Assembly: GCA_021234155.1 (NCBI GenBank)
Contig: JAJEKV010000035.1
Coordinates: 3,240,224-3,304,223, forward strand
Origin: Isoetes taiwanensis
Lineage: Eukaryota > Streptophyta > Lycopodiopsida > Isoetales > Isoetaceae
Direction of reading: 5' to 3'
DNA: 64,000 nucleotides
The position numbers and the translations under genes were made by a program. Every line of letters starts with the position of its first letter. The first letter of the stretch is position 1. Under the pieces are notes generated by a model. The model saw nothing but the letters and a program-made list of their open reading frames with translations. It was not told the origin of the DNA and searched no databases. Positions 32,693-54,512 of the stretch are shown here, piece by piece.

Positions 32693-33921
32693 GGCCCTTT
32701 TTCCACGGCAGTCTTATTTTATGGCTGTCGTATTTTTATAAGACACCCTTTTGGGTTCCATGTCAGCTCCACATCATAGATAAGACACGTCCTAAAAATT
32801 TGATTTCCCATTACGTAAATATAAGACATGTCTAGTTAAGATAAGACATGTCTTATAATCTGGGTTTTCCACAGACCATTTTTTTCAAATCTGAGCAAAG
32901 ACCTGTTGCAGCAATCTACAAGGGAAAGCTGGAAATTCGACCTGCAAAAGCTTTGTGCAATTTCTTGGAGCTGCAAAGCGACTTGCAAGAGCTTCAAGTT
33001 TTCATGCTTAGAAGCTTTTTTGCTGCATATCTTCCAGAAAATATGGTCTCCAGAAGAACCAGAAGAATTGGATTTGCAAAAGAACAACCCACATAAAAAA
33101 CAAGCCAGTTGATGATTTTTAAAAAAGAAATCCTACAAGCCTAGAAGCTTGAATGATTACCGGAATCGAAGCAAGAATCGAAGCTTGAAGCAAGAATCAC
33201 CGGAATGATTACAGGAATGAAGACTGATTACAGGAATGAAGACTGATTATCCATCTTCATCTCTGCTTCAAAACGCCTCTGCTTTTCAAAACGCCATCTT
33301 TACAGGAATGAAGACTGATTATCCATCTTTTCATCTCTGCTTGAAGATACGCTTCCAGATCAAATTCTTGAAGATTTGTTTCCAGATAAAAGCTTGAATA
33401 TTGGCTTCGGAACCAAAACCTTCAAGATTTGCTTACGCATGAAAACCTTCAAGGTTTGCTTACGTCTGATCCAGTTGCACAGATCCGGCGGCAAATCCGT
33501 TCTGCAATCCGACGCTTAATCCGACCTGTCAATGCAAATCCGAAACCTGATATTTATAAAGTATGGCCTTTGGCCTTTTCCATTCCGTTCCCGACGATTC
33601 AATCTGCTGAAGGTCTGCAAGTCGACGATCCATTCTATGGCCAGGCTGACGATCCATTCCGGTAATGGCTGCTTCTTCTGTTTACTCTTTTTTATGACAC
33701 CCTAAAGATCCGGCAGAGCAGCCCTGTGATAGGATAGAAATACATACCTTATTTTGTGGCGGGGGGTTTCCCCCGGAATAAAATGCTCCACTCAACTTGT
33801 ACGGAACCCATTTAAGACATGTCTTAAATTGTGTAGTGGAAAACCTATGGTGACTTATTATCTTACGTGGCCCAATAATATTAAGCTAAATATAAGACAG
33901 AGGTGCCATGGAAAAAGGGCC
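32693..33921. mobile_element. 1.2-kb terminal-inverted-repeat element nested in the hAT
   Basis: The ends are inverted: GGCCCTTTTTCCACGGCA at 32693-32710 and, reversed, GGCCCTTTTTCCATGGCA at 33921-33904 (one mismatch). They are followed on both sides by a GTCTTAT motif and by AAGACATGTCTT palindromes near 32846 and 33814. TTT flanks each end and could be a 3-bp target duplication. The GGCC start and short duplication fit PIF/Harbinger-type or similar elements, but no transposase is seen. Inside, 33140-33330 contains short local duplications (ATTACAGGAATGAAGACTGA). Confidence 0.55.
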
Positions 33922-35194
33922 TTTCTCCTTCAGTATGTCAGTTTCCCTCTAGTTTTTTTTTCTCCTTCTCTATGTGCGGGAGTGGGCTTTTGCTTTTGTT
34001 TCTTTCTTTGCTTTACATTTATGTTTCTGGCATGCAGATATGACGAGCCAGTGCTCTTCCCTTTCGCTCAACAACCAGTGCCCATAGCCAAGGTTCTGCA
34101 GTCGGATACTTAGGCCTATCGGATCTGTCTCTTCGGCATTAGAATAGATCTATGCAAGAGGTTATTTTGCTTCCTTCATTTTTTTCTCTAACGCTTTCTA
34201 TTACAGGGTTTGATTTGATTGGCCTGCGCTAACTCTAGAATGGCCAGCCATGTGACCGACCTGGAGGTTCTTTTGCAGGGTTTTGGCTCTGCCATGGTCG
34301 GCTATATGATCGGCCTCAATCCTTGCAAGGTCAACCTGAACTTGCCATGGCCATGCGTTTTTGACCGGCCTGCATTTTCAAATTCGCTGCTTGAATGCGG
34401 CTTTAAGAACCTCCACCAGAGTTCATGGCCGACCATGTGTTTTTCTTGATGTGTAATCTGTTTCAGCAATTTTCAGTCAGCAAAGGAAAACAAGTAATCA
34501 TCACGAAATTTGATAGAGAAAAGAAACAGATAGAAACGAATCTCCAGTCCTCCTTCTTGCATCTTTTAACCTCAAAATTTGTTCTGATATTCTCCAAAGA
34601 ATAAACTAGGTGTGGACCATAATAATGCCTCAAGCATGGGGCCATTGCTCCTATTTTGATTGCTTTCTTTTGCTTGAGAATTTTGCTTGATGATGAGATG
34701 AGCCAGGGCTTCATCACTATCTACCTTTTCTGATATCATTAGCATGGGGAAGAAGTGGCAAAACCATTCCTGCCAATGGATCTCTTTGCTCTTCAGCACT
34801 CTTCCAGTCTCAATAACTGAGGTACTATTGTTCGCTTTATTTCTGAGATAAAATTCTTGGCATGAGCAGGATCGTTTTATGTTCTTAATCTCTCAACATG
34901 GACACATTGCATTGAAAGCTTTTACGCTCACTTTCTTAGCATCTATTGCCAATGCCATGAGGACTACCGTATCAAATTGTGCCATGTAAATCCATTAATG
35001 ATATATAGGATATTCCTTTTAGCCACCCAACTACAGTGAGATAAAATGTCTACCTAGATGGTAGGAAGAAAGTGCAATTGATTTCAAATACATCCTTGGA
35101 CACAAGGACTGTCACTGTGTTCATTGCTTCTAATTCCAAAACCGAGATCATATTGTTTCCCTTAATGGGCATACCATCTGACTCGCACGTTGCT

Positions 35195-35630
35195 TTGTTG
35201 AAAAATAACATGCTCCACTCTTAATGGGCACACCATTTCAAGTCCTTTCATCTTGACTTATTCTGTGATAACAGTTATGAATGCCATAGACTAGCAACCA
35301 ACTTGTCTCTCAAACCATGTTAGAAAACTGAGGATGGACCGAAGATGGGATATTGAATCTAGAGCCTCCTTCATACAAGCCAAATTGAGCAAGCAGCCTA
35401 TGTTTGTGCTCAAATAAGGGCGCACGTCTGCCTTGTTGAAAAATAACATGCTCCACCATTAATGGGCACACCATTTCAAGTCCTTTTCATCTTGACCTAT
35501 TCTGTGACAACAGTTATGAATGCCATAGACTAGCAACCAACTTGTCTCACAAACCATGTGAGAAAACTGAGGATGGACCGAAGATGGGATATTGAATCTA
35601 GAGCCTATGTTTGTGCTCAAATAAGGACTA
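35195..35630. repeat. 238-bp tandem duplication
   Basis: TTGTTGAAAAATAACATGCT begins at 35195 and again at 35433. The copies stay highly similar to about 35625, except that the second lacks roughly 30-40 bp (the part containing CAAGCCAAATTGAGCAAGCA). No gene lies in it. Confidence 0.8.
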
Positions 35631-36022
35631 TTCTACATGTGCATGGTGTCAGAAGCATACAATTTTGGTGGAAAGTTATTTACAGGAGAGTTGAAGCCTT
35701 TGATCCTGCTGTCTAGATTTGCCAATTGGAGGGTGCTGATCATATGTACCTACGTTGAGCATAGTCTTCTACTTCTGTAAAGAATTTTAGATTTAAGAGT
35801 TGTGCTGTATAGCGATCAACTCAAGGCCAATCTAGCTCCTCGCTGATGCCAGAACTACTCTTTATTGCATAAGTACCTACCAATTTTTCCACTGCTTGCA
35901 TTGAACAAATGAAGATATACATTTCTTATCATTATGAGTTGTTATAAGGTTGTGGGTTTGAAAAAGCCAATGATACCTTCCTCTTATGATGTACTAGGCA
36001 GGGCAGACAATTCCAGTATAAT

Positions 36023-36472
36023 TTGGTTGTGCCCAATTTAAAACTGAACAGGCAGGAGGTGAACCAGCATGATTTGGAGAAGCTCTATGTATCAAACAAT
36101 AGCAGTGTTAGTAACAGGACATATGAACAAAAGCTTCTACAGAGCTGTCTTCCAAAAGAAAACTTTCACAAGGAGAGTTTTCTAAACATTTTATCCAATG
36201 GTTTTATAGTCAGGCCTGGTTATCTTGACATTGACTTCCAAAATAAATTGAGATTCTCAACGGGACAGTTCATGGTGTCCTCTCCTCGGCTGGAAACTGA
36301 GCTGGGGTGTGCTAAACATTTTAGCCGAGAGGATCGGGAATGCACTTTATGCAATTTGGACATGGTGGCGTCGGAGGAACATTTCATCCATTCAGAAGCC
36401 AAGAGCATTAAACATCTTAACTGTTCTTGCAAACAAGCATGTTACACTGCCTTGATCAACCGCTGCTTTTGA
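36023..36472 (+). pseudogene. Possible LINE-type reverse transcriptase C-terminal fragment
   Basis: The 149-codon open frame contains NKLRFSTGQFMVSSPRLETE followed by RECTLCNLDMVASEEHFIHS. This resembles the C-terminal zinc-binding tail of plant non-LTR reverse transcriptases (a C-x2-C pair followed by E-x-HF). No RT or endonuclease motifs precede it. It is a fragment inside the hAT element. Assignment is by pattern only. Confidence 0.35.
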
Positions 36473-36479
36473 AGAGACA

Positions 36480-39400
36480 TGGCCATCCAAGGAAGTCTCA
36501 GTTGGCCCTCTTCCATTTTGTATGTATTATCATTACCCTTTATAATTATTCTGTTACAGCATTTGTGAGCAGCCCATTTGTACCACCACTCTTCATTCAG
36601 CCTTGTGATTCATCAGACAATGAGCTTCACCTAATAAGCCATGTATGCTCGCATTTAATGTAGGTGGGGAAACAGTATTATATAACAACACTTGAATGTA
36701 CTATCATCTGTAGAAGGTCCAAAATGTACATGAAGATTCTCCTCTAATTAACAAGTTTTTGGGTGCCCAAATGAAAGTTGCAGCAGTTTTGTTTCATCAT
36801 AAAAAAAAGGGAAAATGATATCTTTTGTTCCTGTAGCCTGCTAGTTACCTCTCCTACTTATTTCTAGTAATGGCACGTAAAGATACTTGCACGTCATTAT
36901 GGAGGATTATAAGCCCCACTACATTGCCACGTTGCTTAAAAGATGGTTGGATATCCCGTTGATAGCTAAGGAAATAATTCCCACTCACTTGCATTTTGCA
37001 TTTTGCAGGCCTCTAAACTCTTGTCTTGCGACTTTGTTATTTGCATATTTAGCAAGAAACATCTCACTTTCATTACAACATGCAATTGCACATATTATAT
37101 TTATTTGCCCGACCCCCCAAGTATAGATTATATTTTAGCAGATTTTGACTTCATTAATGTGTCTCTTGTAATTGTGCATTTTGCTTTCTATGAAACGAGT
37201 GGCACATGTTCTAGTACAGTAGACTCCTAGGTTGTAACAAAAGCTTCAGGTGCATGTTGAAAAACATGTCTTGGAGATTTCTACCTTGTTTAAGTTGCTC
37301 AATCCACTAGATGTATTTTAACATTGTAGCGATCTTTGCAACCTAGTAGCCATGCAACCCCTCATTGAAGTTGGCAATTTTTCACGTTGCAAGAGAACCT
37401 TATTTTTCAATACTCGTAACAAGCATTATTTGCATCATTAAAAAAGCATTATTTGCATCATTAAAAAAGCAAATTCAAGGCTGGAAATCATTTATGCCCC
37501 TTGTGCTTTTTTTGGCTTTGTTCTCTACAAATGTGAACAACGCATTTGAACACTATATGACAACAAATTATCTGTTGCAAAAACTATCGAAAGTTTAGAA
37601 CATCTCATTTGCCCACCATATGAAGATAAACTATCCAATGCAAAAATTGCCGAACCTAAAACTATCGAGTTCAAATGCATATCAATATTGTTAATTTGGG
37701 ATTTTCAAGATTGTCTGATAATGTTTTCATCCCTAATCAAATGCAAAACTAAATCCAAGCCTAAAATTGCCCAATCCTCCTGTTGCGCCTAACTGTCAAA
37801 CATAACACAATACAATTTCAATCTCAAATGCTACTTTAATAATCATAAACACATGTAATCTAAAACTAAATAATAAGGAAGAAACAAAACATCTACATCG
37901 CAAATCAACTCCTAACACAACTAACAATGACACAGGTAAAACAACACCGACGATAAAGATATATTGCCTAACGTGCAATAAGAACAACAAGAAATACATC
38001 GGACAAACAACAAACCTATCAACAAGGTATAAACAGCAGAAATCAAAACCAAATCTCAAAATGGCAGCAGACGTCTATAAGTACAAACCTTTTAGAAGAA
38101 ACCAAAACCAAGAAAATGCCAAATGAAATCGAAAGACATTACATAAACCTCTACCACACAACAAAAGATGGCTACAACAACCTCATATCTTGCCCATCTA
38201 AAACTAAGAAATACTGGTATCTTAAACGAAGAGGCATCATATAAACCACATATGCTATTCCAACCATGGACAATAAATTTCAATATAAATCTTAATTATT
38301 TTTTCCCTCCGCCTTTATTTTCTACAGCCTCTGGCGTGCCTTTTTGCTAGTTTTATTTTTTTGTAAATAAAATGATATAATCTATAGGCCCATATACAAA
38401 AATATATGATCCATCCAAATAACCTTTAAGGTAATGAATTTAAAAACGCTTCATGGGCATAGCAAATTAGACACCATCCTTGAAAAAAGGAAAAAACTAT
38501 AAAATACCCTTAATTTTGCCACATACCCCTAACTTTTGACAAATTTATGGAATGCCCCTGGTCAACGTACAACGTATTTTGTAGTTTTAAGAATTGTTCA
38601 AATACCCTTTAATTCTTCACACTCTCTTATGTTTCATTTAAATTTCCAGAACGCCCCTTGTGACATATAACGTGTGTTTTTTGAATTTTCAAAAGTTTTA
38701 ATATTCACAAAATACCCCTAAGTTATGATAAAATATTTGAAATTCCCATTAGGCCAACAACATATGTTTTTTTTTTCAAATTTGAATACTTCAAAGTTCA
38801 CAACATATCTTTAAGATTCAACAAAACAATTCAATTGCCAAAGTCAATACAAAAAAAAAAAAAAATTCAATTGCCAAAATCAATACCAAACAATTCAAAT
38901 GCCAAATGAGTCACAAATTGTCAAGTAGATGGGTGCCTTGCATGTCCATGAGTTATGGTCCCTATCCTTGCATCTACTACAACGATGAACTTCCTTCACT
39001 TCTTCTTTACCCCGAATCCTCTTTGTTCTTGGGTGCCCTGGAGGTCTTCTTATCATTGGAGGCAATATCATACATAGAACAGTAGGAACAATAACAGGGT
39101 GCTCATCTCATTGCAAGATTGGTGCAGAACACTTGCAAATCCTTGTTAAGAATCCTTGCTCCAGAATATCGTTGCTGCAGATAGTTGTGACAGATCTTGA
39201 TCCAAAAATCGTTGTGGGTTCTAGGCTTGTGGCACAATTTGCTGATGCAAATAGCTCTTGAATCTCGCAATGGAGATGGAGATGGAATGGAGAATCCTAC
39301 TGGCAAAACGAAATTGAAGATGGAGGTGCTATTAGCAGAACGCTGAAGATGGAGAATCCTACTGGCAAAAACCTATCTCATCTATTCATTCATGGATCAA

Positions 39401-39897
39401 GATAAAGACAACGTAAGTAAGTTCAGACTTAGATCATTCGCTCTATATTATTGTGATTTCTTGCTTTTTCTTGATCCTTGCATTTCTGTAGTTTTCAAAT
39501 TTTCATTATAGGGTGGCTTCTTTAAGCTAAAAAAAAAGGGAAGGCCAATCAATGTAGATCTATGCTTTCTTTCTGCAAATTCTCTAAGATCATAGTTGCA
39601 AGCTCAGGCTCTCAAAAGCAACAGCAGTCTAACATAGTTCTTGAGGAGACCATAGAAATTATAGAAGGTTCTTGTAATGTACAGAAGAACAAACCTATTG
39701 TTGATGTATTTTTAAAACTTAATTATATTATTACCAGTTTATAATAGACTTTATCACTTGTTTCTTTTTTTTACATAAAAAAAATAGTTTCGGTCATTTG
39801 AGATTTTTTTCTTGCATTTGAAATGTTAAAATTGAAAGACTTCCTGTCATGCGAAAGGCATAAATTTTTTTTGCCTGTCACAAGAAAATTAGGGGTA
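36480..39897. other. AT-rich interior of the hAT element
   Basis: No gene is supported over these 3.4 kb. Visible structures are a short duplication of GCATTATTTGCATCATTAAA at 37430-37470 and poly-A/T runs near 38770 and 38850. Confidence 0.45.
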
Positions 39898-39925
39898 GCC
39901 TTCAAATTTGAGCACTGAGTGGCGC

Positions 39926-40593
39926 TTGAATGCCTTTGAGAATTTCCGAAACCTGCAGCTGTCTCGGCTTAGCTTATGTGTTTTTGCATACCCTTTCCAC
40001 CATATACGATCTGCGCCCTTGAGGTCGGCTGTTGCCACCCTGCCTTTGTCTTTGTCCTTCATTCCGTATGTATTCCCATATTCCCTCATCTCGTCCAGCC
40101 AGGCCTCTGCCTCCATGCCTGACCGACTGTCACCTGAGAACTGTTCAAGCTTTCTTGCCTTCCATACATTGCTCAGTGCCGAATCTACTTTCTTCTGGTA
40201 GTCTGAGGTCCTTGTGTCCCCGAGGCTGCCATCTCTACGGTCCTGCACCTCTTTCACCTCTTCCTCGGAGTCGGAGTCCGAATGTGAGCTTGTGTCGGAG
40301 GAGTCCGTGCTAGGGGACCTCCTCCTCTTGCTCTTCTTCTTATCCTTTCCCGTCTTTCAAGGTGGTGCTTGCGGCAATTGGACGTTGTGATCAGGGCCAA
40401 CTGCTGCTTGCACTGTCAATAAGGCCTTTATTTCTTGAAGGTCCGATCTCATCTGCGACATCTCCTCTTCGGGAGTCATGGGGCCGAATTCTTCATACAT
40501 GTTCCTTGCTGGGTGCTGTCTGGCCGGAGTCTCTTCATCTCTATGGACTCGCCGGTCTTGCTCAGCTGTTCTTGGACCTCTAGCTGCATACAC
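39926..40593 (-). pseudogene. Copy B gag, N-terminal part
   Basis: A first frame (40593-40357) carries EEFGPMTPEEEMSQMRSDLQ, aligned with copy D Gag (RLTPERELLLMKRQL). After a break comes a KKKSKRRRSPSTDSSDTSSH basic/serine linker, then the Gag core (40257-39926) with SALSNVWKARKLEQFSGDSR, EAWLDEMREYG and GADRIWWKGYAKTHKL. It is cut by the hAT right end at 39917 and continues at 27867. A possible splice acceptor (TTGTGTATGCAG) just before the first frame could mean Gag is made from a spliced RNA. Confidence 0.8.
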
Positions 40594-40772: not shown

Positions 40773-42845
40773 TCACCGGCAGGATGGGTTATCCTCAAAG
40801 AACTTCTTAACCTGGGCCGTTCCTACCGAGCGTCCCAAGTTTCTGAGGATGTTCGTTGGTGTTCCGCCCTGCAAGGCTGTCACCAAATCTTCCACTCTGC
40901 GGTCGAAAGTGTAGGCCGCGGTCACTACTAATCTTCCCTGCCGTCGGTAGGGTACCGCGAAGTCAAAGATATCAAGTGCCACCGTTCTCTTGACTAGGAT
41001 GACATGGTCAACTGTTAGAATCAGCCGAGCATGCCTACCAAATCCTGAGAATGCGATGAGCATAAATACTCCTTCTTCGCCCCTTGGGCTGAATTTGTGG
41101 TGGATGATCGCTATTCTCCCGTCCAACAGCAGAGGAAGGTAATACCTTATCGACTTGTCCCTGCCCGTTGCTGTTGATTCTTCGTCGGGTCGGGCACTAG
41201 CTCTATGTCTTCCCGCATATTCATCGACGTGAACCTCCGTCAGGTCTCTGTGGTCCCTTATTATTGATGCGAGGCTTGTCAGGTTGATCTCGCCTCTTCT
41301 CTGGACACCTGTGGAACAGGGTTGCCCTTAAGGCCATATCTGCATAGGCGTGATTTAGAAGGTGAGGCGAATCATAAGCTTTCTATATTAATTTTGTAGG
41401 CGATTACTTTTTGCGACTTGAACTGTTTCATAGAAACTTTGGCGAACCTTGCCAACTTTAATGTGGTAATTGAAATAAATAAATTAGATGTCAATTCACA
41501 TGCAACTTACAGGATTAAGGAAACCTATTATGTTTAGCAAAATTTGAGTAGTTGTTGATTTTTTGAGTATTCTACTATGGTCCACTAGAGCTAGCAAACA
41601 ATTACTTGATCTACAATTAAGGGGATAATCTATGATCCTAAACACTTAGATCCATGGAACTGGAGACGAAACTCTAGATCTGAGCTTAAAAATGCATGGC
41701 TAATTTAAGAAAGGCGGGCGGACGAAATGGTAAAACTTTGGCGAAAGAATATAATTTATTTTCAATAGTAACCTATTCAGATTTAGTATCTCATTTTTGA
41801 AAATATTCAAAATATAGCCATTTGGCTATAAATAGCCCCTTAAGGGCAACCCTGCTGTGGAAGCTGGTGTCGAAAAACTCGGCATCAAAATACTTGTGGA
41901 CTTGCCGCGGATCCCCATCCGTTCTTGGATGGCGTAGAATTCTTCTTCGGAAGGCAGATCCCGAGCTGTCATCAATTGTCGGACGCTGCTATATGCCTCG
42001 ATATCTGAAATCGACTTCTCGATGTAAGTGTCAGCTTCTCTTACGTTGATTGGGATGTCGGAAGCCTCCCGATCGATAAACTCATCTAGATCTGGTTGTT
42101 GCCGCAGAAGGTGCAGCAACTCATCGCGTCTGTACTCCCTGGCTCTGTATTGGGGGAGGTTCTGGATGTCACTCAGGAGCAGATACTCCTGGAAGCTGAT
42201 GATGATGGGAGCTAGGCTTGTGATACCTAGCCCGAGCGGGGGAGCAATCCTGTTGGTCTGCACGTCCTCGTCGAAAGACTGGATCTCCTGCTCTGCTTGT
42301 TGCCGCTCCTGGTCCGGGTTGAACTCGACGTAGTCTTCGTCGTCTGAGTCGAGCTCTTCGTCTTCGGCTCTTCCTTCTTGCTCCGCTTGATACTGCAAGA
42401 GGAGCTGACCATCTGCTGAAGAGGCTATGGGGTCTACATCCATGGCCTGGATAGAGGGTTCCCCGATTGGGTTTTGGGCACGGTGAGAGAGAAAGATGGC
42501 TATGGCAGCGGTATAGGAGAAATATTTTGCCCTATTAACTGTCATGACCATGTAGTCTGGCATCCTAGCAACCTTGTTGTTCAGGTACTTGGCAATGTTC
42601 GGGACATCACCCAAGGCTGCTTGGAGGGATTGCTTAGGAACAAAATATCCTGTACAAGGGGGAAGCTGTACTAAGGATGGTCCTACCCTAGCTTGGAACT
42701 CAGTCATGACTTCCTGATAGAATGGGGTTGCCTACAAGGTGGCTTGGATGTCTATCTCCTTCTGGAAAACTGCAAAAATGGCATTGATGTCAGCCTCAGC
42801 CACATGAGCACTGGCGTTGTACCAGCGCCTGAATGCTGGAGCCAT
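40773..42845 (-). pseudogene. Copy B element protein X (about 500 aa, unknown function)
   Basis: The ATG at 42845 starts AFRRWYNASAHVAEADINAI. Codon 38 is TAG, after which the frame stays open into the MITE at 41854. Removing the MITE and one target duplication lets the same frame resume at 41308 and run to 40773, so X is one protein of about 500 codons. Layout: helical N-terminus (ALGDVPNIAKYLNNKVARMP), acidic linker (EELDSDDEDYVEFN), middle with PIIISFQEYLLLSDI, and a C-terminal beta-rich region (LTVDHVILVKRTVALDIFDF, GRLVVTAAYTFDRR). Copy D has the same architecture. It lies between the H3-like ORF and gag on the same strand. No known domain recognised. Confidence 0.75.
41317..41854. mobile_element. 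538-bp hAT MITE inside the X gene
   Basis: The terminal inverted repeats are CAGGGTTGCCCTTAAGG (41317 onward) and CCTTAAGGGCAACCCTG (ending 41854), a 17-bp perfect match. They are flanked by a perfect 8-bp target duplication CTGTGGAA at 41309-41316 and 41855-41862. It is AT-rich and has no coding content. Its excision restores the X frame, which confirms the boundaries. Confidence 0.95.
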
Positions 42846-42957: not shown

Positions 42958-42967
42958 CTATTTATAG
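42958..42967 (-). promoter_or_regulatory. TATA box for X copy B
   Basis: CTATAAATAG lies about 113 bp upstream of the X ATG (42845), downstream of the palindrome pair. An internal promoter is inferred from its conserved place in copies A and B and a similar box in copy D. Confidence 0.5.
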
Positions 42968-43160
42968 GAAAAAGGGAAAACCCTAATTTTTAGAAAACTT
43001 AGAAAACTTTAGGGTTCGACAAATCTCACCTATTTTGAGGTTTAAATGAGGATTTGAAGGCTAATTTGAGGGTATGCGCCTGAATAAGACTATCTAATAA
43101 ACCTACTGCAACAAATTTGAGGTCAATTGGAGGTGGCATGAAAGAGATAATGCTAAAAAT

Positions 43161-43225
43161 ACTCACGGTGTGCGCTAGAAAGCTGACCTAAAATTTAGGT
43201 CGAGGTCCTGGCGCATACCGTGAGT
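43161..43225. repeat. Palindrome B1 of the H3-family element
   Basis: The arms ACTCACGGTGTGCGC and GCGCATACCGTGAGT pair at 14 of 15 positions, and the odd one could form G-U in RNA. The centre GACCTAAAATTTAGGTC is a perfect palindrome. Confidence 0.88.
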
Positions 43226-43363
43226 AATTTGGCCCTATTTGGTCAAAAATTATCTAAACAGGATGAACTAAGGGTCAAAACATGATGGTCTCACCGAGAT
43301 ATGCAAGATTGACCCCTTATTTGCCCAGTTTGGAGATGGTTAGGACCCTTTTTGATGCGAAAT

Positions 43364-43428
43364 ACTCACGGTGTGTGCCTGGGGCCTGATCTAAAATTTA
43401 GGTCGATGCTCTGACGCATACCGTGAGT
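43364..43428. repeat. Palindrome B2 of the H3-family element
   Basis: The arms ACTCACGGTGTG and CATACCGTGAGT flank a centre GATCTAAAATTTAGGTC. It lies 203 bp from B1. Confidence 0.85.
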
Positions 43429-43566
43429 AATTTCCCACTCCTTGACCAGATGAAGTCCATTTTAACTAAAACAAAAAGCAAATACTTCAACCTTAACAAT
43501 AATTTTTTTACAGTTAGAACTTGTTCTACAAAACTTTTTATTTACAAAATTTATTATTTACAAGAA

Positions 43567-44412
43567 CTAGCGTTCTCCTTTTATGTGACTTGCCAATTGC
43601 ATGTCCTTCTTCATTAATGTCACTCTCTTAGCGTGCGAAGCGCACGCCTTCGAGTCTTCAAAGTGCTGCACCAACTTCTGCTCTACTGCCTCCTGTAAAG
43701 CTAGCAGCATTTCACATGTGACTCTCTTGCTTTTGTCAAATTCTTGTACGACCTCCTTCACGAGCCTGGCGAATGGTGCTCGAGGGATGAGAAAGCCGTA
43801 ACTTCTCTGAAAATGCCGGATCTCTCGGATTGCTTGCGCCAGTCTCGACCCAAGCTTCTTCGCTACTGGCTTCTTTGGTGGTATCGGCTTCACTGGGGGC
43901 AGCTTGATAGTCTTCTTCTTAGATGGCCATCCTCCCTCGACGAATGTTACCTTGTTTGCCTGATAGTAGGTGTTGTAGGCCTCCCACATCCGCATGTACT
44001 CCTTGTAAGCCTTGAGCTTCTTCTGATAGACCTTGAGATGGTCGACCACATATGACTCCCGTGCAGGTCGGGCCGGCTTCTTCGGATCTTTCTCCTGCCC
44101 CCACGTGGGATATGGTGGGGATACCTCGCCCGTCTGATCCTCGTCCGCCGGTTTTGAGGAGCTCCCTACCTCTTGATCTCTTTTTGGGGAGGGCTCGTAA
44201 TCTTCGTCATCCTCGTCGTCAGAGAATGAGGGCTGGTCGGGCTGCCGTTCTCTGATGACAATTTTGACCATCGGTGTCTTCTTCAATTTTCTCTTGGGCT
44301 CCTCCTTGCCCTTCCCTTTGAGCTTCTTCCTTACCTCCGCCTCCTGTTCTTCCAACTTCGTTTTCTTCTCGGCCGTTCTCCTCTTGATGCGTCGTAACTT
44401 CGTCTTTCGCAT
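43567..44412 (-). CDS. Histone H3/CENH3-like protein encoded by the gypsy-family element
   Basis: 281 codons from ATG at 44412, uninterrupted. Residues about 1-60 are highly basic (RRIKRRTAEKKTKLEEQE, GKGKEEPKRKLKKTP). Next come an acidic DDEDDEDYEPSP patch, a tyrosine-rich helix (VYQKKLKAYKEYMRMWEA) and a KKPVAKK linker. Residues 196-281 are an H3 histone fold: alpha-N REIRHFQRSYGFLIP, alpha-1 PFARLVKEVVQEF, alpha-2 LLALQEAVEQKLVQHFED, then HAKRVTLMKKDMQLA and a GER end. By eye about half of the positions equal canonical H3. REIRHFQ, LIP and RVTLM-KD are closer to plant CENH3, but loop 1 has the canonical length. It should be nuclear and could enter nucleosomes; this is inferred. A TATA-like box precedes it. 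Related broken copies at 3146-3532 and 23050-23340 show it belongs to the element. Confidence 0.85.
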   Translation of the reverse strand: MRKTKLRRIKRRTAEKKTKLEEQEAEVRKKLKGKGKEEPKRKLKKTPMVKIVIRERQPDQPSFSDDEDDEDYEPSPKRDQEVGSSSKPADEDQTGEVSPPYPTWGQEKDPKKPARPARESYVVDHLKVYQKKLKAYKEYMRMWEAYNTYYQANKVTFVEGGWPSKKKTIKLPPVKPIPPKKPVAKKLGSRLAQAIREIRHFQRSYGFLIPRAPFARLVKEVVQEFDKSKRVTCEMLLALQEAVEQKLVQHFEDSKACASHAKRVTLMKKDMQLASHIKGER

Positions 44413-44506: not shown

Positions 44507-44557
44507 ACAAGAAAACATAGAAAGAAAGTCTCCTAAATCATCTAAGTAGGAAGGTAC

Positions 44558-45076: not shown

Positions 45077-45169
45077 TCAATGGGAATTTGAAAGATAAGA
45101 AAAGAAGAGAAATTGACATCTTTGCTAGGATTAACTAGAAAAGGATTATATGCAGTAATTTTTGCAACA
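45077..45169 (+). repeat. 5' LTR remnant (93 bp)
   Basis: From TCAATGGGAATTTGAAAG to TTTTTGCAACA, every base matches 50122-50214. Upstream of 45077 the sequence is unrelated to the 3' LTR. Confidence 0.9.
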
Positions 45170-45170
45170 G

Positions 45171-45182
45171 TGGTATCAGAGC
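45171..45182 (+). promoter_or_regulatory. Primer binding site of the copia element
   Basis: TGGTATCAGAGC, one base after the LTR end. Confidence 0.88.
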
Positions 45183-45201
45183 TATCTAATCCAAGAGCAG
45201 G

Positions 45202-46190
45202 ATGTCTACAAGGTTTGGAGCCAATCTTTTGAACTCCATAGATGTATTTAAAGGTGAAACAAAGTTTCAAGTTTGGAAGCAAAGTGTGAGGGAGGTACTT
45301 GAGTTTGAAAAATTATGGTATTTAGTTGACCCCAGTGTTGTTACCACAGCACCTGTAATTAGTGCAGCAGGTTCTAGTGCCAGCACGTCTTCAAGCTCAG
45401 TTGAAGGAGGAGGAAGTCAAAGGGATGCAGCTGGTACTGTTACCGTTACAGCAGGTGGTACTGCAGTGATTAGCATGGACGAGAAGGCAAGGATTATGGA
45501 GGCTCAGTCCATAATATGTCACAAAGTGGGAACGGTGATCAAGCTGAAACTTAGAGGTAAGTCTCCTGCTGATATGTGGAAGTTCATGCTAGAAAATTAT
45601 GAGCAGAAATCATCACCACAAATAGATGTGTTAGAGAAACAATTAAGGAGACTCAAATTATATGAGAAAGATAACATTGCTGAGTTTTTGGAAAAGTTTG
45701 AGTCAATAATAGCAGATTTAAAAGGTGCTGGAGTAGTTTTGTCTGAAGATTATCAGCTGCTAGCCATCTCTAGAGCAGTTTCTCATAATACCCAGCTGGC
45801 TACATTATTAAGGAATGTGGCAAGAACAAAGGAACATGCTATTAGAATGATAAGAACAGAATTTGAACAAATAAAAGGTGATGATGATCAGAGGTTATGT
45901 TTGTAAAACAGAAGAAAGGGAAGAAAAAATCGGATAAAAAGCAAATTGGTCCATGCTATAATTGTAATAGCTATGGGCATCTAAAAGTAAACTGTCCCAA
46001 GCTGGGTAAAGAAATAATTTGTTACAATTGTGAGGGAAAGGGCCATATTGCAACAAATTGTTCAAGCCCAAAAAGAGGAAAAGGGAAAAAATTTGATGGG
46101 AAAAAATCTGGAGGGTACAAATCCAAGCCAAGCCTAAATATTGCAAAGGAGACAAGTCAAGAAGAAGATGAGCAAGATGAGGACATTGAG
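45202..46190 (+). pseudogene. Copia gag (45-50 kb element)
   Basis: The frame 45202-45906 begins with STRFGANLLNSIDVFKGETK and carries UBN2-type Gag sequence (DMWKFMLENYEQKSSPQIDV, LRRLKLYEKDNIAEFLEKFE). A frameshift at about 45897-45906 leads into a basic segment with two zinc knuckles, CYNCNSYGHLKVNC and CYNCEGKGHIATNC. The protease follows in the same second frame. Confidence 0.88.
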
Positions 46191-47677
46191 GTAAATATGT
46201 CTAATTCTAAGATGGGGAAAAAAATGGATACTGACTTGCTTATCTTAGATTCAGGAGCTGAGAGATCAGTAACAGGGACCTCAAGCATTTTAAAAAATTG
46301 TCAAAGGAGAGAAAACGGACATGTACAATTTGGAAATGGAGATTTAAAAGAAATCAAGAATGTTGGTGTTTTAGAAATGTTTGACTTGGAGGGCAAAGCT
46401 GTGAAGTTAAAGAATGTGTTGTGCATACCTGGATTGATCAGAAATCTTATTTCAGTTTGTCAGCTTGTTGATCAAGGATATAAAGTTGTTTTTGAAATTT
46501 TTCTGGGAAATAAGAAAATGTTTATTGGGAAACGAGTTGGCAATTTATATGGGTTGAGCAGACATCATTTCTCTTGTGTAAATTTGCTAACTAGTCCATC
46601 CATTAAAACTTGGCATGAGAGGTTATGTCATGTCAACTCAAATACAATAGAGTTGCTAAATAAAAAGGGATACATCAAAGCAAGCTCTGATCAAACATCA
46701 CAACAAGTATGTACGGGGTGTATGCTTGGAAAACATAGTAGGTTGCCTTTTAAAAAAGCAAAGAAGAGGGCAAAAGGAATCCTAGATCTGATACACACAG
46801 ATTTGTGTGGACCTCTCAATGTTACTAGGCTAAGTGGGAAAAGGTATTTTATGACCTTAATAGATGACTTTAGTAGGAAAACTAAAGTATATTGTCTAAA
46901 GACAAAAGATGCACATTTGACAAATTCAGACAGTTCACAAATGAAGTAGAAACTGAGACAGGAAGGAAAATCAAATGCATAAGGTCTGACCGAGGAGGGG
47001 AATTCATGTCAGGAGAATTTAAAATGTTTTGTAAGAACAAAGGCATCAAAAGACAAGTTACTTGTAGATATTCTCCTCAGCAGAATGGTGTAGCTGAGAG
47101 GAAGAATCGAACAATTTTAAATGCAGTTAGAAGCATGTTAAAATCAGCAGGGCTACCCAACTTTTTGTGGGAAGAAGCAGTTCATACTGCTGTGAAGGTA
47201 CAAAATAAATTACCATCTCTTAGTATACAAGGAGGAATTCCCAATATGCTATGGTCTGGAAGTAAGCCGAGCTATGATGATTTGAAAGTCTATGGTTGCT
47301 TGGCATTTGTACACATTCCAAAAGAAAAAAGAAGGAAGCTGGATGACAGGGCATTGATTACATATCTTGTGGGATATGATGATCATTCTAAAGCTTATAG
47401 GTTATATGATCCTAAAGCAAGAAGAGTTATAATAAGTAGAGATGTTAACTTTGATGAAAATCAGGTCTATAAACCATTAACTAGCTCCAATACAAAACAA
47501 GTGGATGATACTCCATTGAAGGAATATGATATGAAATCTGAAACTACTGACAAAGATGTTGAAGTGAATGCAGACACGGATGATGAAGAAACTGGAGCTG
47601 ATATGACTGCAGACCTGCAAGAAAGAGTTGAGGAAACCTCAAGGGCTGTTGAAGAAGGACCTGCAGGTGAAGAATAA
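46191..47677 (+). pseudogene. Copia protease and integrase (45-50 kb element)
   Basis: Protease: LLILDSGAERSVTG. GAG-pre-integrase: TWHERLCHVNS and CTGCMLGKHSRLPF. Integrase: LIDDFSRK, then a frameshift near 46920, IRSDRGGEF and YSPQQNGVAERKNR, with the usual D-D-E residues present. The C-terminal signature FVHIPKEKRRKLDDRA and VGYDDHSKAYRLYDP ends near 47450. An acidic linker and a stop at 47675-47677 follow before RT. Confidence 0.88.
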
Positions 47678-49430
47678 GTGGAAATTGCACCTCAGCAAGC
47701 ACCTCCAAAGAAGAAAATACTAACTGAAGCAGAAAAACTGAAAACAGAATTGAACATTGACACTGCAACTCATGGTCGAGATGATGCTGGGAGGAGCAAA
47801 AGATTTCAGGAAGAACAACCTGAGGTACATGATATATTTGAAATTTTGATGCATTTAAGCCCTGAGGTACCAAGCACTCTTGAGGAAGTTTTAGGTTCTA
47901 AAGAAAAAAACCTATGGCTAGATGCAATGAAAGAGGAAATGGACTCTTTCATAAGAACTGACACTTTTGAGGTTGTTAAGAAACCAGAGGGTAAGAATAT
48001 TGTTGGTAATAAATGGATATTCAAAATCAAAACTGGAGCAGATGGAAAGTCCCCCAGGTACAAGGCAAGACTAGTAGCTCAGGGCTTTTCGCAAAAAAAG
48101 GGACAAGATTTTGATGAAACATTTTCTCCTCTGGTTAAATTGAATAGTGTCAGGATGTTGTTGGCTCTGGCAAATGCATGTAATCTAGAGATACATCACA
48201 TGGATGTTAAGACTGCTTTCCTTAATGCAAAACTTGATGAAGAGATTTTCATGAAGCAGGCACCAGGATTTGAGCAAGGAGAAGATAAGGTGTGGAAATT
48301 GAAAAGAGCAGTTTATGGCTTAAGGCAGTCACCCAGGGAATGGTATAAATGCATGGATACCTTCTTGACAGAGCAAGGATTTATCAAATTATTAAATGAT
48401 GGAAATTTGTACAAATTTGAATGCAAAGGTGGCTGGTGCATAATTGCACTACATTATGGTGGCAAAGGGAACTAAATGTTTGCAGACCTGTAAAGGATTA
48501 TTAAAAAACAGGTTTGAAATGTCGGATCTTGGTGAGCTCACAAAATTCTTGGGAATCGAAATGTCAAGAAATAGGGATAAAAGTGTTATTTTGTTGACTC
48601 AAAAAGAACAAATCAGAGGTATGCTTGAAAAGTTCAGGATGAAAGAATGCAATATCAGTAAAACTCCATCTATGCCAGGGTGTAAGTTGTCTCTTGATAT
48701 GTGTCCAAAAAATGATGAAGAAAGAAAAGCAATGGAGAAAATTCCGTATAGATCTTTAGTTGGCTGCTTGTCATATGTTGCCAACTGTACCAGACCAGAT
48801 GTAGCTCATAGTATGAACATACTCAGTAGATATAATAATAATCCAGGGAAGGATCATTGGACAGCTGCAAAAAGGGTGTTAAGATATTTGAAAGGTACCA
48901 TAGATATGGGAGTAGCTTATAGTTCACAGAATTTGACACTAACTACCTATTGTGATGCAGACTGGGCAGGGGATTTAGATGTAAGAAAGTCCACCTCTGG
49001 TTATCTTATGATGCTAGGAGGAGGTCCTATTGCATGGAAGTGCAGAAAACAAACATCCATAGCGTTATCTACAGCAGAAGCAGAGTATGCTTCTGCCACA
49101 TTATGTGCCAAGGAATTAATTTGGGAACGAAGATTGATATTGGAACTTGGCATTGATCAGCCAAACTCTACTGAAATGCTATGTGACAGCACAAGTTGTA
49201 TAGCTATGGCAAAAAACCCTGTAATGCATGAAAGGTCAAAGCATATAGAGCTGGAGATGCATTTTATTAGAGATGCTGTGAGTAAAGGTCTGATTAAGAT
49301 GAGCTACATTAACACCAATAGACAAATAGCAGATATTCTGACCAAAGTTCTACCAGAGAAAAGGTTTGTTGAGCTCAGGGAACAAATTATGCATGCTGAA
49401 ACACAGGATACAGTTGCAAACATGCCATGA
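47678..49430 (+). pseudogene. Copia RT and RNase H (45-50 kb element)
   Basis: RT: NKWIFKIKTGADGKSPRYKA, VAQGFSQKKGQDFDETFSPL, HHMDVKTAFLNAKLDEEIFM and YGLRQSPREWYKCMD. At the active site, where LYVDDM is expected, the frame reads LHYGGKGN and stops (48475). The continuation is in another frame (48444-49430) with LTKFLGIEMSR, then RNase H with CDADWAGDLDVRKSTSGYLM, ALSTAEAEYASATLCAKEL and ADILTKVLPEKRF. The missing YVDD and frameshift make it catalytically dead. Confidence 0.9.
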
Positions 49431-49438
49431 AGGGGAAG

Positions 49439-50214
49439 TGTTGAAATAAACAGTCATGACATGTTTTGAGCTGTCTAGGTTGTTTCTTAAGCAGGTCCAC
49501 AACATGCATGGAACTTGATGAAGATCATATCTTAAGTTGCAGACCATTCATATCCTAAGTTCTAACTACATATGAAGTTGTTATAACCACCAATTGGTTC
49601 AATAACAGGGATAACTCATAACCACCAATGGTTCAATAACAGGGATAACTCAATGGTTAATAAAATATTGGTTAATTTAATGATTCAATGGTTCGACCAG
49701 GAAAAAGTTGATATTACTGAACGATGCATGTGGGATAATAGTGAACGAAGAAAATAGCAGACTTAGAAAGTTGATCGGCAGCCGTAACCGCCGGATTGAT
49801 CTGCTATAAAGACTACAGGCTTAATTTGAAGAGGTGATCGGAAGGCAAGGTTGGAATTCGGCAAGGTTCTTTGCCGTCAAAGTGTTTAAGGAGGCCGATC
49901 ATTGGAGCTACAGTGAACTAGTTATAACCATTGCTACGGTGTTGTTAAAATTATTTCCTATGGTTATGATGGTTGAATGCATATTCAACAAGCTAAATAG
50001 TTAAGCAAGAAATTAGAGACCAAATTGTGGCTTTCTTGCTAGTTAAGAAGAACTCTTAGCTTGTATGATCTTGTCTTAATCCATTGTAGTTGCTTTGCTA
50101 CATGGTGTAACTCTACTTTGCTCAATGGGAATTTGAAAGATAAGAAAAGAAGAGAAATTGACATCTTTGCTAGGATTAACTAGAAAAGGATTATATGCAG
50201 TAATTTTTGCAACA
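49439..50214 (+). repeat. 3' LTR (776 bp) of the copia element
   Basis: Starts TGTTGAAATAAACAGTCATG right after the polypurine run AAGGGGAAG (49430-49438) and ends TTTTTGCAACA. It includes a 23-bp internal near-duplication around 49585-49635 (CAATAACAGGGATAACTCA). Confidence 0.88.
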
Positions 50215-50630: not shown

Positions 50631-52052
50631 CTACTGCATGATCCATGCCGAATCAAGCCTTCCAAGCTTACCGCCGGGTGTGGGGTTGATGACATCGTTG
50701 ATGGTGCGGCCTTGAGATTCCTGCATGAAGTCTAGATAGTGCTTTTCAAGGTCTATCTTCATCACCCACATAACATCCTCAGTTGGCAAGTGCTTCCACT
50801 TGACCAAATATTGGAGCATTTGAGTCCTTCTGGTCTGCTTATAGGCCCGATCAAGAAGAGCTTCAGGCACTATCTCTAGATGCTCTTCTGTCATTTCAAG
50901 GGTGGGTGTATCCAAGATCTCCTATGGATCCGGAGTATGTTGCTTCAGAAGACTCACGTGAAAGACCTTGTGGATCTTCAAGCGGGGTGGCAAATCCAAC
51001 CGATATGCCTGATCTCCAACACGTTCAATGATCTTAAATGGCCCAGCCCATCTGGGTGCCAGTTTCTTACAGTTACCAATCTTAAGCTTGGCTTGCTTAA
51101 CCTTAATCTTGAGCCAAACTGAATCACCCACTTGGAATACTCGTGGGGTCCTGTGCTTATCAGCCACACTTTTCTGACGACTACGTGCAGCCAATAAATA
51201 ACCACGAACTTCGTCAACCAAAGCTTGCATTTGCAAGAGTTGCTGAGAAACCTCCACTTTAGAAATAGGATTATGCCATGTGTCTGGAGTAAGGCATTGA
51301 TAACCATAATTTATCATGAAGGGAGACATTCTAGAAGACTCCTGTTTCATGCTGTTATAGGCAAACTCCACTAAATAAATATAGTCAGCCCACTGAGATT
51401 GCTTACTCCACACATAGCTTCGCAACATATCCTCTATAATGCGGTTGGTGTGCTCTGTCTGTCCATCCGTCTGAGGATGATATGCTGTACTCATAGCAAG
51501 CTTGGTCTGGATGGTGGCAAAGAAATCTTTCCAGAATGCACTTACAAACTTGAGATCCCTGTCGGATACTATCACTCGTGGCATCCCGTGTAATCTGAAG
51601 ATTTCCTTTGCAAACAGCAAAGCTGTGTCTAAGGCTATATCTGTGGTACGACATGGCAAGAAATGAGCCATCTTCGACAACTTGTCGACCACTACCATTA
51701 AGGCATCATATCCGCGGAGAGTACGTGGAAGGCCCACAATGAAATCCATGGTTATCACTTCCCATTTGGCGTTGGGCACATCCAGAGGTTGCAATTCTTC
51801 TGGAATCCTTAATTGTTCGGCCTTGGTTTGCTGACACGCTTGACATTGCTTAATGTATCTGGCAATGTCCTTCTTCATATGCGGCCAATAATAGCTGGAG
51901 TGAAACTTAAAGTAGGTCTTCATGAAACCTGCATGTCCAGCTATAGGGCTGTTGTGTGTATCATGGAGAATAAGCTTACGTACTCCTGAAGTCTCGGGTA
52001 CACACAACTTATCTTTGTAATAAAGCAAATTGCCCTCCTTCTTAATATGTAG
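50631..52052 (-). pseudogene. Copy D integrase and chromodomain
   Basis: Integrase zinc region: HDTHNSPIAGHAGFMKTYF and CQACQQTKAEQLRIP. Core: VITMDFIVGLPRT, VIVSDRDLKF and YHPQTDGQTEHTNRIIEDML (D-D-E present). The C-terminal part has KLKIGNCKKLAPRWAGPFKI and FHVSLLKQHTP, then one in-frame TAG (50922-50924), then a chromodomain-like tail QMLQYLVKWKHLPTEDVMW. It is split from RNase H by the insert at 52053-54512. The chromodomain places copies B and D near the chromovirus branch. Confidence 0.88.
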
Positions 52053-54512
52053 CACTATAACAGGGGGTTAATTTTGTATTTTTGTACGCTTTTCACTAAG
52101 GTTTTGCTATGATTTTGTGGTGTATTTTAATTGATGTACTAATGCGTACATCTAGAGTGCGCATACGCTTTCATTATTTTTTATGGCAATTAGACAATGG
52201 TTTAACCCCTTTGAAAAAAAAAAATTGTAATATGGCCCTCTCGAATCGTCTGCTGTTCTTCGATCTGCAGTAGAATTTTTTCGCTTTGGTTCCTCCGTGT
52301 TGCTCTCTTGCCTGCTTGAGGCATTTATTGCAGGGTTTGGTTGTCTTCGAGCCGTTATCTGCTCCATTTTGTCTTCGGCTATATCAAAGGAGTTATGAGC
52401 AGTTGTTGCAGGGTTGTTGGTCTCGAGCACTAGTCTTCAAGCATCTTGTTTCGCCTCTGGTTATCAACGGCCATCATAGGTTTTCCTGTAAAGATTATTT
52501 TCGGCTCTGCTATTCCGGTCTGAAGGGCTTCGACCATGTTTTATCCTTTAAGTTTTTCCCTCTAGCAATGGTGCAGAACCATGGAGGGATTGGACGAGTT
52601 GCAGAAGAAAGAATTAGGTTGCATAAGTTCTGAGATCAATTTTCATGGAGCTGGGAATTCTTCACTCGTCCTAAGACGGCATCTGCACTTATGAAACTGT
52701 AAGTCCTTTTTGTTACATTTCAATATTTCATCCAAAGTTCTAGGTCTCCAAATTTGATGAAAAGATGCATCACAAACAAATTCCGATGGCATTTCAATGT
52801 ATATTTTCTCTGTCTGGGCAAGACTACGAATTTGGCATCTATTTAAGGGCTAGTTAAATTGTATGAACAGCAGGCTTTGGTTAAAAAGCTTCACAAGTGA
52901 TTTTTCCTGCTTGTAGTGATGCTCTTATGCAGTGGCCTGAAGCTTCCAAATCGGCAGTGTAAGAAGGTACATGGTTTTTTCTCATAGCAATCATTCATCC
53001 TCCAAGAATGGCCATCTATCTTTTAAAAACTTAGTAACAGACCTGCAGCCATGCATTGCATCATGCATTGGATCTCATTGGAGTTGAATTTTGCAGAGCT
53101 AGTGGGTAAGCACCATCTAAGTTACCCTTTTGAAAGCGTCTACCTGGAAGACCTCTATATGAGATTAGACAATGTTCATGCACCAATTTTCCTTAAGTCT
53201 TTTGAATGATCAATTCCATTTGGAAGATGCGTGACTGGTCTACCCGACAAATTGAAGTCCTTTGTATTCCGGTGGCTCAGAACAAATTGAAGCTTCTAAT
53301 TGATTACATGGTTGGAGAAGCCATGGATTCGTCCGGTGTACTGAACTGGAGTGGTTTAGGATGACACATTTATTTATATGATAAAATTGCATTCACAAGA
53401 GATTGTTAGCTATTAACACATGCATATCATATTAGCAAGTCTACCTTGGCTAAGAGGCGCTGTAAATAAGAGGAGTTGCATAAATAGAAGCTTTCCTTCC
53501 TTTGTTGCTTGTTTCCTCGTTTTCTTTCTGTTTGTTCCAACATAGGAAATACTTTCTTCCGTTTCGTTTATTCTTTTATTAATATTCAGCTTGCCCCATA
53601 CCTAGTTGGAATTATCTTTGCTCTAAAGTAAAAAATGTAGCCGCTTTTCCTTGCAATGTTGCCATAGCTATTTTGCAGGTTGTATAATCTGACTGTACAT
53701 ATTTGACCAACATTAGGCTTTTGTGCTGCTTTGCTTATATGTAGGTATTATATTATGCAAATGGCAAACAAGCACCTCAGATACTTACATGCATGCAAGT
53801 AGACGGAATTACACTGGGTATTTGAGATGGATCTTTATCTCCATAACAATTCTGGTTCTGCACAAATTTAACTCTCCAATTGTACTGTTGCACCTCATAT
53901 AATTACATATATGCAACAAGTAGAAGGTGCTATGGCTATGCTATGGCTATTTGAGATGGATCCTTATGTCCATAACGATTTTCATTCTGACATAAATGAA
54001 ACTCTACGATGTACTACTATATGACATCAATGTCTATATCTATGTGGGTCCAATGTGTATGTGGGTCCAATTCTCACGTGGCTTAATTTTATATACTAAA
54101 AATAATGGTTTTGCTTATACATCCTTTTGTTTGTTTTGTAATGGTTATGCTGTAATTTATAATAAAATCTCTTATATCGTACATAATTTGTACTTAAGTT
54201 ATCATAGAGTTCATTTGTATCTAGAAGATTTATTTGTATGCACGTCGATGTTTTTAGGCCCCGAAGGGGCCAAATTTTTTTTTATAGCAATATAACCATT
54301 ACATTTTACACTTTGAAATTAAAATCCCCCTTAAACCCCCTTTGGTTTGGGTGCATATTCACACGGGGGGTGACATATATTCACCCCTTATTCCTTAATC
54401 TACACCATACACAAAGTTCCTCATTTGTGGGGTATGGATGTATAGGATTTGGTATACTGTATAACAAGATTTGCAAAATACTATAAGATTTGAGGTAATG
54501 TACTATATGGTG
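52053..54512. mobile_element. 2.5-kb insertion between RNase H and integrase of copy D
   Basis: Comparison with copy B (KEARTDKE then KEGKLLY) shows where foreign DNA splits copy D. The ends read CACTATAACAGG inward from 52053 and CACCATATAG inward from 54512, a weak inverted repeat that recalls a CACTA element. No clean target duplication was found. Inside are a diverged direct repeat of about 90 bp (near 53760-53870 and 53900-53985, sharing TATTTGAGATGGATC) and a 115-codon frame (52286-52633) without a known motif. Confidence 0.55.

Follow-up and report, generated by a model that had tools for sequence, protein, structure and literature searches.

The window, by which is meant the whole 64-kb stretch of DNA analysed, very probably holds members of a chromovirus-like Ty3/gypsy family that carries, ahead of gag, the gene for a histone H3 variant with its own N-terminal part of 190 residues. 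One copy of the element (A) has an open H3 reading frame, two others (C and D) have broken ones, and a related element (B) lies upstream of copy A on the same strand. An earlier note on this DNA, made from the letters alone, had claimed a 281-codon ORF ending in an H3 fold, its location inside a gypsy-family element, and broken relatives in two other copies; all three claims hold, as the fold is recovered by profile search and by predicted-structure match to nucleosomal H3, the ORF is colinear with gag-pol on one strand in copy A, and the relatives lie at 3525-3143 and 23127-23053, both on the minus strand. The H3 sequences of the window are as follows:

43567..44412, minus strand: H3 ORF of copy A, 281 aa, identified by ORF, Pfam search, PDB search and predicted structure
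43570..43839, minus strand: histone fold of the copy A H3 ORF, from residue 192, where the Pfam match starts, and drawn to the last codon, residue 281
23053..23127, minus strand: H3 remnant of copy C, 25 codons near the C-terminus with one stop (tblastn E 5.1e-7)
~23345-23220, minus strand: N-terminal H3 remnant of copy C, read by eye
3143..3525, minus strand: H3 pseudogene of copy D, residues 150-280 in two frames with one stop (tblastn E 3.4e-30)

Fold and proposed role of the H3 protein

The copy A ORF comprises 281 codons from its ATG, and the frame is open for 40 further codons upstream, to ~44532, with no second ATG there. The protein consists of a lineage-specific N-terminal part of ~190 residues and a C-terminal H3 fold. 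A search of the 281-aa product against histone profiles, as the earlier note had proposed, identifies PF00125 (Histone) at residues 192-277 with an E-value of 4.6e-25 and 88.7 bits (cut-off 26.4 bits), spanning profile positions 36-121 of 122. In PDB sequence searches the full protein matches 176 distinct chain sequences with E<=0.001, the top match being H3.3 (7ux9_E, 1.2e-22), and the 94-residue H3 domain alone retrieves H3 chains at E 1.8e-23. The AlphaFold2 model, built with 51 sequences in the alignment, places the helices of the fold at residues 188-204, 211-225, 233-260 and 268-277, with pLDDT values (means per ten residues) of 73-75 for 191-210 and 87-95 for 211-280, and 70.8 for the whole protein. 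Two extra helices are predicted in the N-terminal part (6-32 and 121-152), the rest of which is modelled with low confidence. Foldseek returns 428 PDB chains with E<=0.001 for this model, and the best 50 of the 428 are all nucleosome or histone-octamer entries by title.

Aligned with plant H3.3, the copy A fold shows no gaps over 88 residues (H3 positions 47-134) and is 55% identical. The canonical H3 tail (ARTKQTARKS..., with K4, K9 and K27) is absent, ~190 unrelated residues standing in its place, and the initial MRKTK bears only a faint likeness to it. At the positions that we take to form the H3-H3′ bundle (C110, H113, A114, R116, D123, L126 and I130), the canonical residue is found in 7/7 cases in copy A, 7/7 in copy C and 6/7 in copy D. 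Presumed DNA-contact positions are identical at six of nine in copy A (R49, R69, R83, K115, R116 and T118), the others being two R/K swaps and a change of R63 to P, and are kept at five of the eight readable in copy D. Presumed H4-facing positions are kept at 8/12 in copy A, with conservative changes at 74, 84 and 119 plus L103H, and at 7 of the 11 readable in copy D. Differences from H3.3 common to A and D are R56, P63, R64, D79, V84 and H103; they include the replacement of K56 by R and of K79 by D, as well as the altered nucleosome contacts R63P, F84V and L103H, to which copy D adds R49W.

An H3 variant gene that selection has long maintained in such an element suggests that the element manipulates host chromatin. 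As a tentative mechanism, read from sequence features and ranked ahead of a decoy or adaptor function and of a CENH3-like role at centromeres, the protein would pair with host H4 and enter host chromatin. The conserved core would provide the pairing, and the retained residues of the H3-H3′ four-helix bundle would allow entry into tetramers and nucleosomes. Without the canonical H3 tail, and without K56 and K79, nucleosomes of this kind would be free of the usual silencing marks and would expose an N-terminal arm specific to the element. This could allow the element to evade silencing or to guide its integration complex; the integrase of the sister copy B has a chromodomain. Identity and mechanism taken together, we lean towards this explanation as a whole.

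The same residues bear on whether the protein needs to be deposited at all. The altered DNA-contact and core positions (P63, V84 and H103 in both A and D) and the lost canonical tail would also suit a binder or decoy that occupies H4, chaperones of the ASF1/CAF-1 type or H3-binding readers, or that links the integration complex to chromatin, without deposition; helices 6-32 and 121-152 would fit an adaptor, and H113, D123, L126 and I130, which presumably face chaperones, are kept. However, almost all residues of the H3-H3′ tetramer are retained in the three copies, although a pure H4 decoy would have no need of them. These features do not separate the two models decisively, and a role of this kind is considered somewhat unlikely.

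Relatives of the H3 domain

Database searches place two groups of proteins near the element H3. The full-protein search yielded 165 matches with E<=0.001 among 1158 candidates, of which the best 120 were considered, and ranked the long-tailed H3 proteins P0001 and P0002 first, followed by plant CENH3 (Linum at 58% and Coffea at 60% identity). CENH3 is the best named match in this search, from which proteins under ~155 aa, canonical H3s (~136 aa) among them, were excluded. With the domain alone, 283 of 288 candidates gave E<=0.001, and CENH3-type and protist proteins were on top of the best 120.

Plant CENH3 rows contain the motifs REIRHFQ, LIP and RVTLMKKD, which had led the earlier note to see CENH3, more than canonical H3, as the better match. 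Set side by side, the scores do not support this preference: P0002 reaches 100.2 bits, a hypothetical protein of Cinchona 92.9, Coffea CENH3 91.8 and Linum CENH3 91.7, while plain plant H3.3 is nearly equal to the latter at 86.5. The better-scoring plant CENH3 proteins share 55-60% identity over ~88 residues with the element H3, but the plant CENH3 rows have a loop 1 one residue longer, a GGKG ending where the element reads HIKGER (GER), and another N-terminus.

Two trees were calculated from 93 columns only. The first has 74 rows: copies A and D, the domains of two canonical H3s, and 70 proteins hand-picked for names and spread from the 229 fetched. The second has 69, five long rows having been dropped (copy D, Willaertia, Coptotermes, Trema and P0111). 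Inner branches are starred in 18 of 70 cases in the first tree, and the bootstrap is unsettled in both. The element is nearest to the long-tailed P0001 and P0114, with support of 87/91 when copy D is included and 99/93 when it is not, a group that was named after the tree had been seen and that may reflect long-branch pull, since the element sits on a long branch (a stem of 1.16 with D, an end branch of 1.55 without). Plant CENH3 clusters apart (with support of 100/97 in the first tree, the long row Willaertia being inside the cluster) and the element falls outside it in both trees, although the AU tests reject neither its placement with plant CENH3 (p-AU 0.445 and 0.329) nor its placement with canonical H3 (p-AU 0.366). 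Capture of a plant CENH3, and its use by the element for reaching or marking centromeric chromatin, would agree with the shared motifs, the best named matches and the p-AU values; set against the nearest relatives in both trees, the loop, the ending and the score of H3.3, this reading appears unlikely.

Long-tailed H3 proteins, 217-412 aa in length and grouped in clusters of ENA records with at most 24 members, are P0001, P0002, P0007, P0011, P0019, P0042, P0045, P0049, P0052, P0064, P0067, P0056, P0088, P0097 and P0102. In several of them a large novel stretch is inserted between an H3-like start and the H3 fold. They are possibly other element-borne H3s; in nine unusual H3 proteins checked for a gag domain, Pfam gives histone and otherwise only matches below the cut-off. 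An origin from giant viruses was rejected after scans of viral contigs with the H3 protein, P0042, P0102, P0001, ORF2 and integrase, which detect close relatives only, found no relative. Scans of prokaryotic genome contigs with H3 and integrase also found none.

Element copies, spacer and selection on the H3 gene

The gene order of copy A on the minus strand is H3, ORF2, ORF3, gag, a 12-kb insert, gag, protease, RT, RNase H and integrase, and copy B repeats the gypsy order of gag, protease, RT, RNase H and integrase on the H3 strand. The features of both elements, and of the insertion between them, are:

41826..42845, minus strand: ORF2 of copy A, 293 aa open from 42707, with a homologous extension to 42845 that holds one in-frame stop
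40773..41126, minus strand: ORF3 ('o3') of copy A, 117 aa, with a relative in copy C
39902..40257, minus strand: 5′ part of copy A gag, 57% identical to copy B gag, stopping at the insertion
27892..39901, no strand assigned: later insertion of ~12 kb in copy A gag, with the 10-bp direct repeat TCAAATTTGA on both flanks
24889..27891, minus strand: remainder of copy A, with gag end (27871-27788), protease (27442-26777), RT (to 25781), RNase H and integrase start (25224-24889)
45077..50214, plus strand: later Copia insertion upstream of copy A, with identical 93-bp LTRs
50634..59567, minus strand: copy B, related element, from ORFs, Pfam and alignments
59567-58857, 58823-58131 and 57628-57227, minus strand: ORF2-like frame, a further ORF and gag of copy B
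56763-56062, 55724-55071, 54960-54481 and 52055-50922, minus strand: protease, RT, RNase H and integrase of copy B
50921-50634, minus strand: chromodomain of copy B (PF00385, E 6.3e-7), after a stop, at the C-terminal end of integrase

Since gag resumes at 27871 across the insert and leads on to protease, RT, RNase H and the beginning of integrase, the H3 gene is colinear with gag-pol. The TCAAATTTGA 10-mer stands on either side of the gag gap, at 39911-39902 and at 27891-27882 (and occurs once more from 38785), a pattern that a later insertion of ~12 kb would leave; the insert, in which no ORF was recognised by eye, is possibly a large DNA transposon. Copy A is dead, with a stop in ORF2, gag interrupted and integrase cut at 24889 by the LTR of copy C. 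The rest of its integrase, including the end, was not found within the window, for which reason a clean insertion of C into A is not provable, and neither LTRs nor a primer site were found within the window for A, B or D. No relative of ORF2 was found at E<=10 among 1213 protein-database candidates, and its AlphaFold model, made from two sequences, is uninformative (mean pLDDT 39.5); copy B has an ORF2 homologue ahead of gag-pol, 28% identical to that of copy A in a two-row alignment. Upstream of copy B no H3 is found in the 1.3 kb left free by the Copia insertion, which interrupts the stretch (best chance match E 0.077), so the presence of H3 is not established for every subfamily.

The Copia insertion has its coding region split over several frames and no target-site duplication by eye; with identical LTRs, the split frames may stem from sequencing errors or a recombined copy. 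Between it and the H3 ORF, 44540-44790 is exon-like by eye, with a GT...AG intron-like end just before the ORF, and may be a captured host exon.

Copies C and D are represented, besides their H3 sequences, by:

23704..24887, minus strand: 5′ LTR of copy C, 1184 bp, TGTGACGT...ACGTCACA, ends read by eye
23691..23702, minus strand: primer-binding site TGGTATCAGAGC, one base beyond the copy C LTR
21328..21996, minus strand: weak ORF2 remnant of copy C, 26% identity (tblastn)
20895-20632, minus strand: ORF3 remnant of copy C
18269..18328, minus strand: last 60 bp of a C-type LTR (95% identity), which may be where the 3′ LTR of copy C ends
1815..2269, minus strand: ORF2 remnant of copy D, 58% identical to that of A over 142 columns

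Copy C reads LTR, primer site, hairpin, H3 remnant, two hairpins, ORF2 remnant and ORF3 remnant, and we take TGGTATCAGAGC to fit the usual plant primer site for initiator tRNA-Met; this site and the types of element present point to a plant as the probable host. No gag or pol was detected in its interior and no clear target duplication at its ends. H3 lies upstream of ORF2 in all three places where it is found (A, C and D). The earlier statement that H3 always comes first in the internal region stands for copy C, with LTR and primer site upstream, and agrees with the downstream gag-pol of copy A; the upstream side of copy D is a minisatellite and that of copy A is disturbed by Copia, where it is not checkable. 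The minisatellite directly upstream of copy D starts near 3525, where its H3 loses the N-terminal part.

The window also contains two large minisatellites of one family in opposite orientation (3567-4438 and 16415-17071), with a 19-bp unit and a 57-bp higher-order repeat. An LTR element at 5957-15135 has terminal repeats 98% identical, and nested within it is another at 7972-13957 (180-bp repeats, 98%) with an open 902-aa pol ORF that has a chromodomain-like end by eye.

The spacer between H3 and ORF2 holds, in all three copies, two imperfect 67-nt hairpins with starts 203-213 bp apart, and a TATA-like box:

43363..43429, minus strand: hairpin 1 of copy A, covariance model
43160..43226, minus strand: hairpin 2 of copy A, covariance model
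22620..22899, minus strand: hairpin pair of copy C (22899-22833 and 22686-22620), covariance model
23499-23433, minus strand: third hairpin, in copy C alone, located after the primer site and ahead of the H3 remnant, unlike the pairs
2697..2968, minus strand: hairpin pair of copy D (2968-2902 and 2763-2697), covariance model
42959..42966, minus strand: putative TATA-like box TATAAATA of copy A, 121 bp before the ORF2 start

A covariance model search of the window (E<=10) finds seven hairpin sites, all within copies A, C and D, and both strands score because the sequence is palindromic. The hairpins covary: 90.6% of 181 cells are paired and 34 cells are changed on both sides, each reached by 0/500 shuffles, and the covariation score is 0.515 against 0.229 in shuffles (0/500) and at most 0.174 when the partner is slid by 1-3 columns. 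Pairs with a double change (13/26; 61/500 shuffles as high) and further pair types (23; 248/500) are unremarkable. This sample is of seven sites from three elements only, and copies within one element are related. The palindrome may act as RNA or as DNA. Rfam at gathering threshold gave 0 matches, a tRNA gene search found none, and a bacterial promoter scan was uninformative. The TATA-like box precedes the ORF2 start by 121 bp in A, 122 bp in C and 117 bp in D, while its letters vary (TATAAATA, TGTAAATA and CATATATA, respectively) and C has ATA in place of the ORF2 start codon. Beyond the H3 stop, copy A has AATAAA boxes at 43555 and 43542, which were not found at this place in C and D. With the hairpins and the TATA-like box between them, and AATAAA in copy A, it is a reasonable reading that H3 would be expressed apart from ORF2-gag-pol.

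Between H3 and gag is an unusual place for a TATA-like box in an LTR element, and its near-fixed distance to ORF2 could mean that the spacer is the promoter part of a true LTR, in which case H3 would close an upstream element, behind its integrase, instead of opening the following one. A same-strand integrase does lie upstream of H3 for A (that of copy B) and for C (that of copy A). Against this arrangement, copy C has an LTR with primer site upstream of H3, no TGGTATCA site lies between the TATA box and ORF2 in the window-wide list, for which TGGTATCA was sought alone, the integrase of copy B has no hairpin after it, and integrase and H3 have a 5.1-kb Copia element between them, or else the LTR of C itself; it is accordingly regarded as very unlikely.

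Selection on the H3 gene was assessed by Nei-Gojobori counts over tblastn-aligned codons, with genes of the same window as yardsticks. As dS is saturated in most pairs, the proportions pS and pN are quoted, and the values for A against D and A against C include the time that D and C spent as pseudogenes:

H3, A against D: 126 codons, pS 0.864, pN 0.257
H3, A against C: 24 codons, pS 0.765, pN 0.124
gag, A against B: 97 codons, pS 0.879, pN 0.256
RT, B against A: 176 codons, pS 0.930, pN 0.172
RNase H, B against A: 138 codons, pS 0.804, pN 0.153
ORF2, A against D: 139 codons, pS 0.657, pN 0.238
ORF2, A against C: 205 codons, pS 0.774, pN 0.511 (poor alignment)
ORF3, A against C: 86 codons, pS 0.700, pN 0.408
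gag, against other gypsy families in the window: 94 codons, pS 0.779, pN 0.520
RT, against other gypsy families in the window: 194 codons, pS 0.850, pN 0.340
RNase H, against other gypsy families in the window: 142 codons, pS 0.766, pN 0.365

Differences at codon positions 1/2/3 between the H3 of A and D number 20/16/38 in 64 codons and 23/15/38 in 63. The saturated pS and low pN, like those of gag, indicate that the H3 gene was held by selection to a depth comparable with gag. Together with the identity of the element, it is very probable that the gene was present in the common ancestor of the three strongly diverged copies, all compared from one 64-kb window, and was kept by purifying selection. 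The dN/dS comparison proposed in the earlier note thus gives low pN at saturated pS among the copies within the window. A single recent processed pseudogene, unrelated to the other copies, which that note had named as the contrary outcome, is contradicted by these values and by the differences from H3.3 that A and D have in common. That a host H3 was picked up once by chance and carried passively, or is a host gene with elements inserted beside it, would be in line with two of the three H3 copies being broken and with the gene capture by plant transposable elements documented in the available text of a review (PMC7264820), but is highly implausible given saturated pS with low pN as in gag, the same ORF order, spacer hairpins and TATA spacing in 3/3 copies, and the LTR and primer site upstream of H3 in copy C.

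Significance and known systems

Plant genomes restrain LTR elements largely through H3-tail marks. An element whose own H3 lacks that tail and has been maintained by selection would counter this control directly, in the nucleosome itself, and would give chromatin biology a new tool. The question whether transposable elements alter chromatin by writing histones, instead of avoiding or reading marks, becomes testable with it. It also bears on the turnover of H3 variants such as CENH3, with mobile elements as a vehicle for histone genes. In its widest form, which we hold to be rather doubtful, the proposal is that the family builds nucleosomes without the canonical H3 tail from host H4 and its own H3 variant and that the long-tailed H3s (P0001, P0019, P0042, P0049 and others) are element-borne as well; this would imply silencing-resistant or specially marked chromatin on the element's own DNA or its target sites, and TE-encoded H3 as a recurrent strategy in eukaryotes.

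Among the papers listed by searches of the open-licence literature, which covers few subscription journals and no bioRxiv, none describes a histone gene in an LTR retrotransposon. In a review devoted to extra ORFs of plant LTR elements, the word 'histone' is absent from the main text (PMC7264820). A screen that covered 121 angiosperm genomes mentions no histone domain in the available section, and 'histone' occurs twice in the main text, in other contexts (PMC9289625). In the available text on the fungus P. lutzii, whose genome is TE-expanded, PF00125 and the zinc finger PF00098 are enriched among species-specific genes, an enrichment that may hide another TE-borne histone (PMC3203195); a further paper, so far as its available text goes, concerns H2A/H2B (PMC9719178), and that of another offers nothing relevant (PMC9709290).

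The nearest precedent is the hAT DNA transposon of the fungus Pyrenophora tritici-repentis, which, in the available text of its description, has an H3-like gene (H3L) inside a transposable element and multiplied with it, with H3L ESTs reported (PMC3538342). That element is a DNA transposon with terminal inverted repeats and recent copies, all 26 H3L genes being very similar (PMC3538342), whereas here the H3 ORF is colinear with gypsy genes of an LTR retrotransposon, the copies have diverged to synonymous saturation, and the H3 tail is replaced by a long novel N-terminal part. Single histones are also encoded by viruses, as bracovirus H4, the singlet H3-like histones of giant viruses and nudivirus Orf1 demonstrate in the available text of a review (PMC9145170). 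As here, a mobile or viral genome encodes a core histone, there thought to enter host nucleosomes, and Orf1 too has a long unrelated N-terminal part, but the carriers are DNA viruses; the main text has 'retrotranspos' and 'retrovirus' 0 times and 'transposon' once, in another sense (PMC9145170). Gypsy elements of Phalaenopsis orchids carry an m6A RNA demethylase ORF, by the available text of that report, and so represent a plant Ty3/gypsy lineage that took up a host-type domain in the form of an additional ORF and retained it, although the domain differs from histone (PMC9289625). Copy B shares with chromoviruses the order gag-PR-RT-RH-IN-chromodomain; A and B are unlike them in having two uncharacterised ORFs before gag and, in A, the H3 ORF before those.
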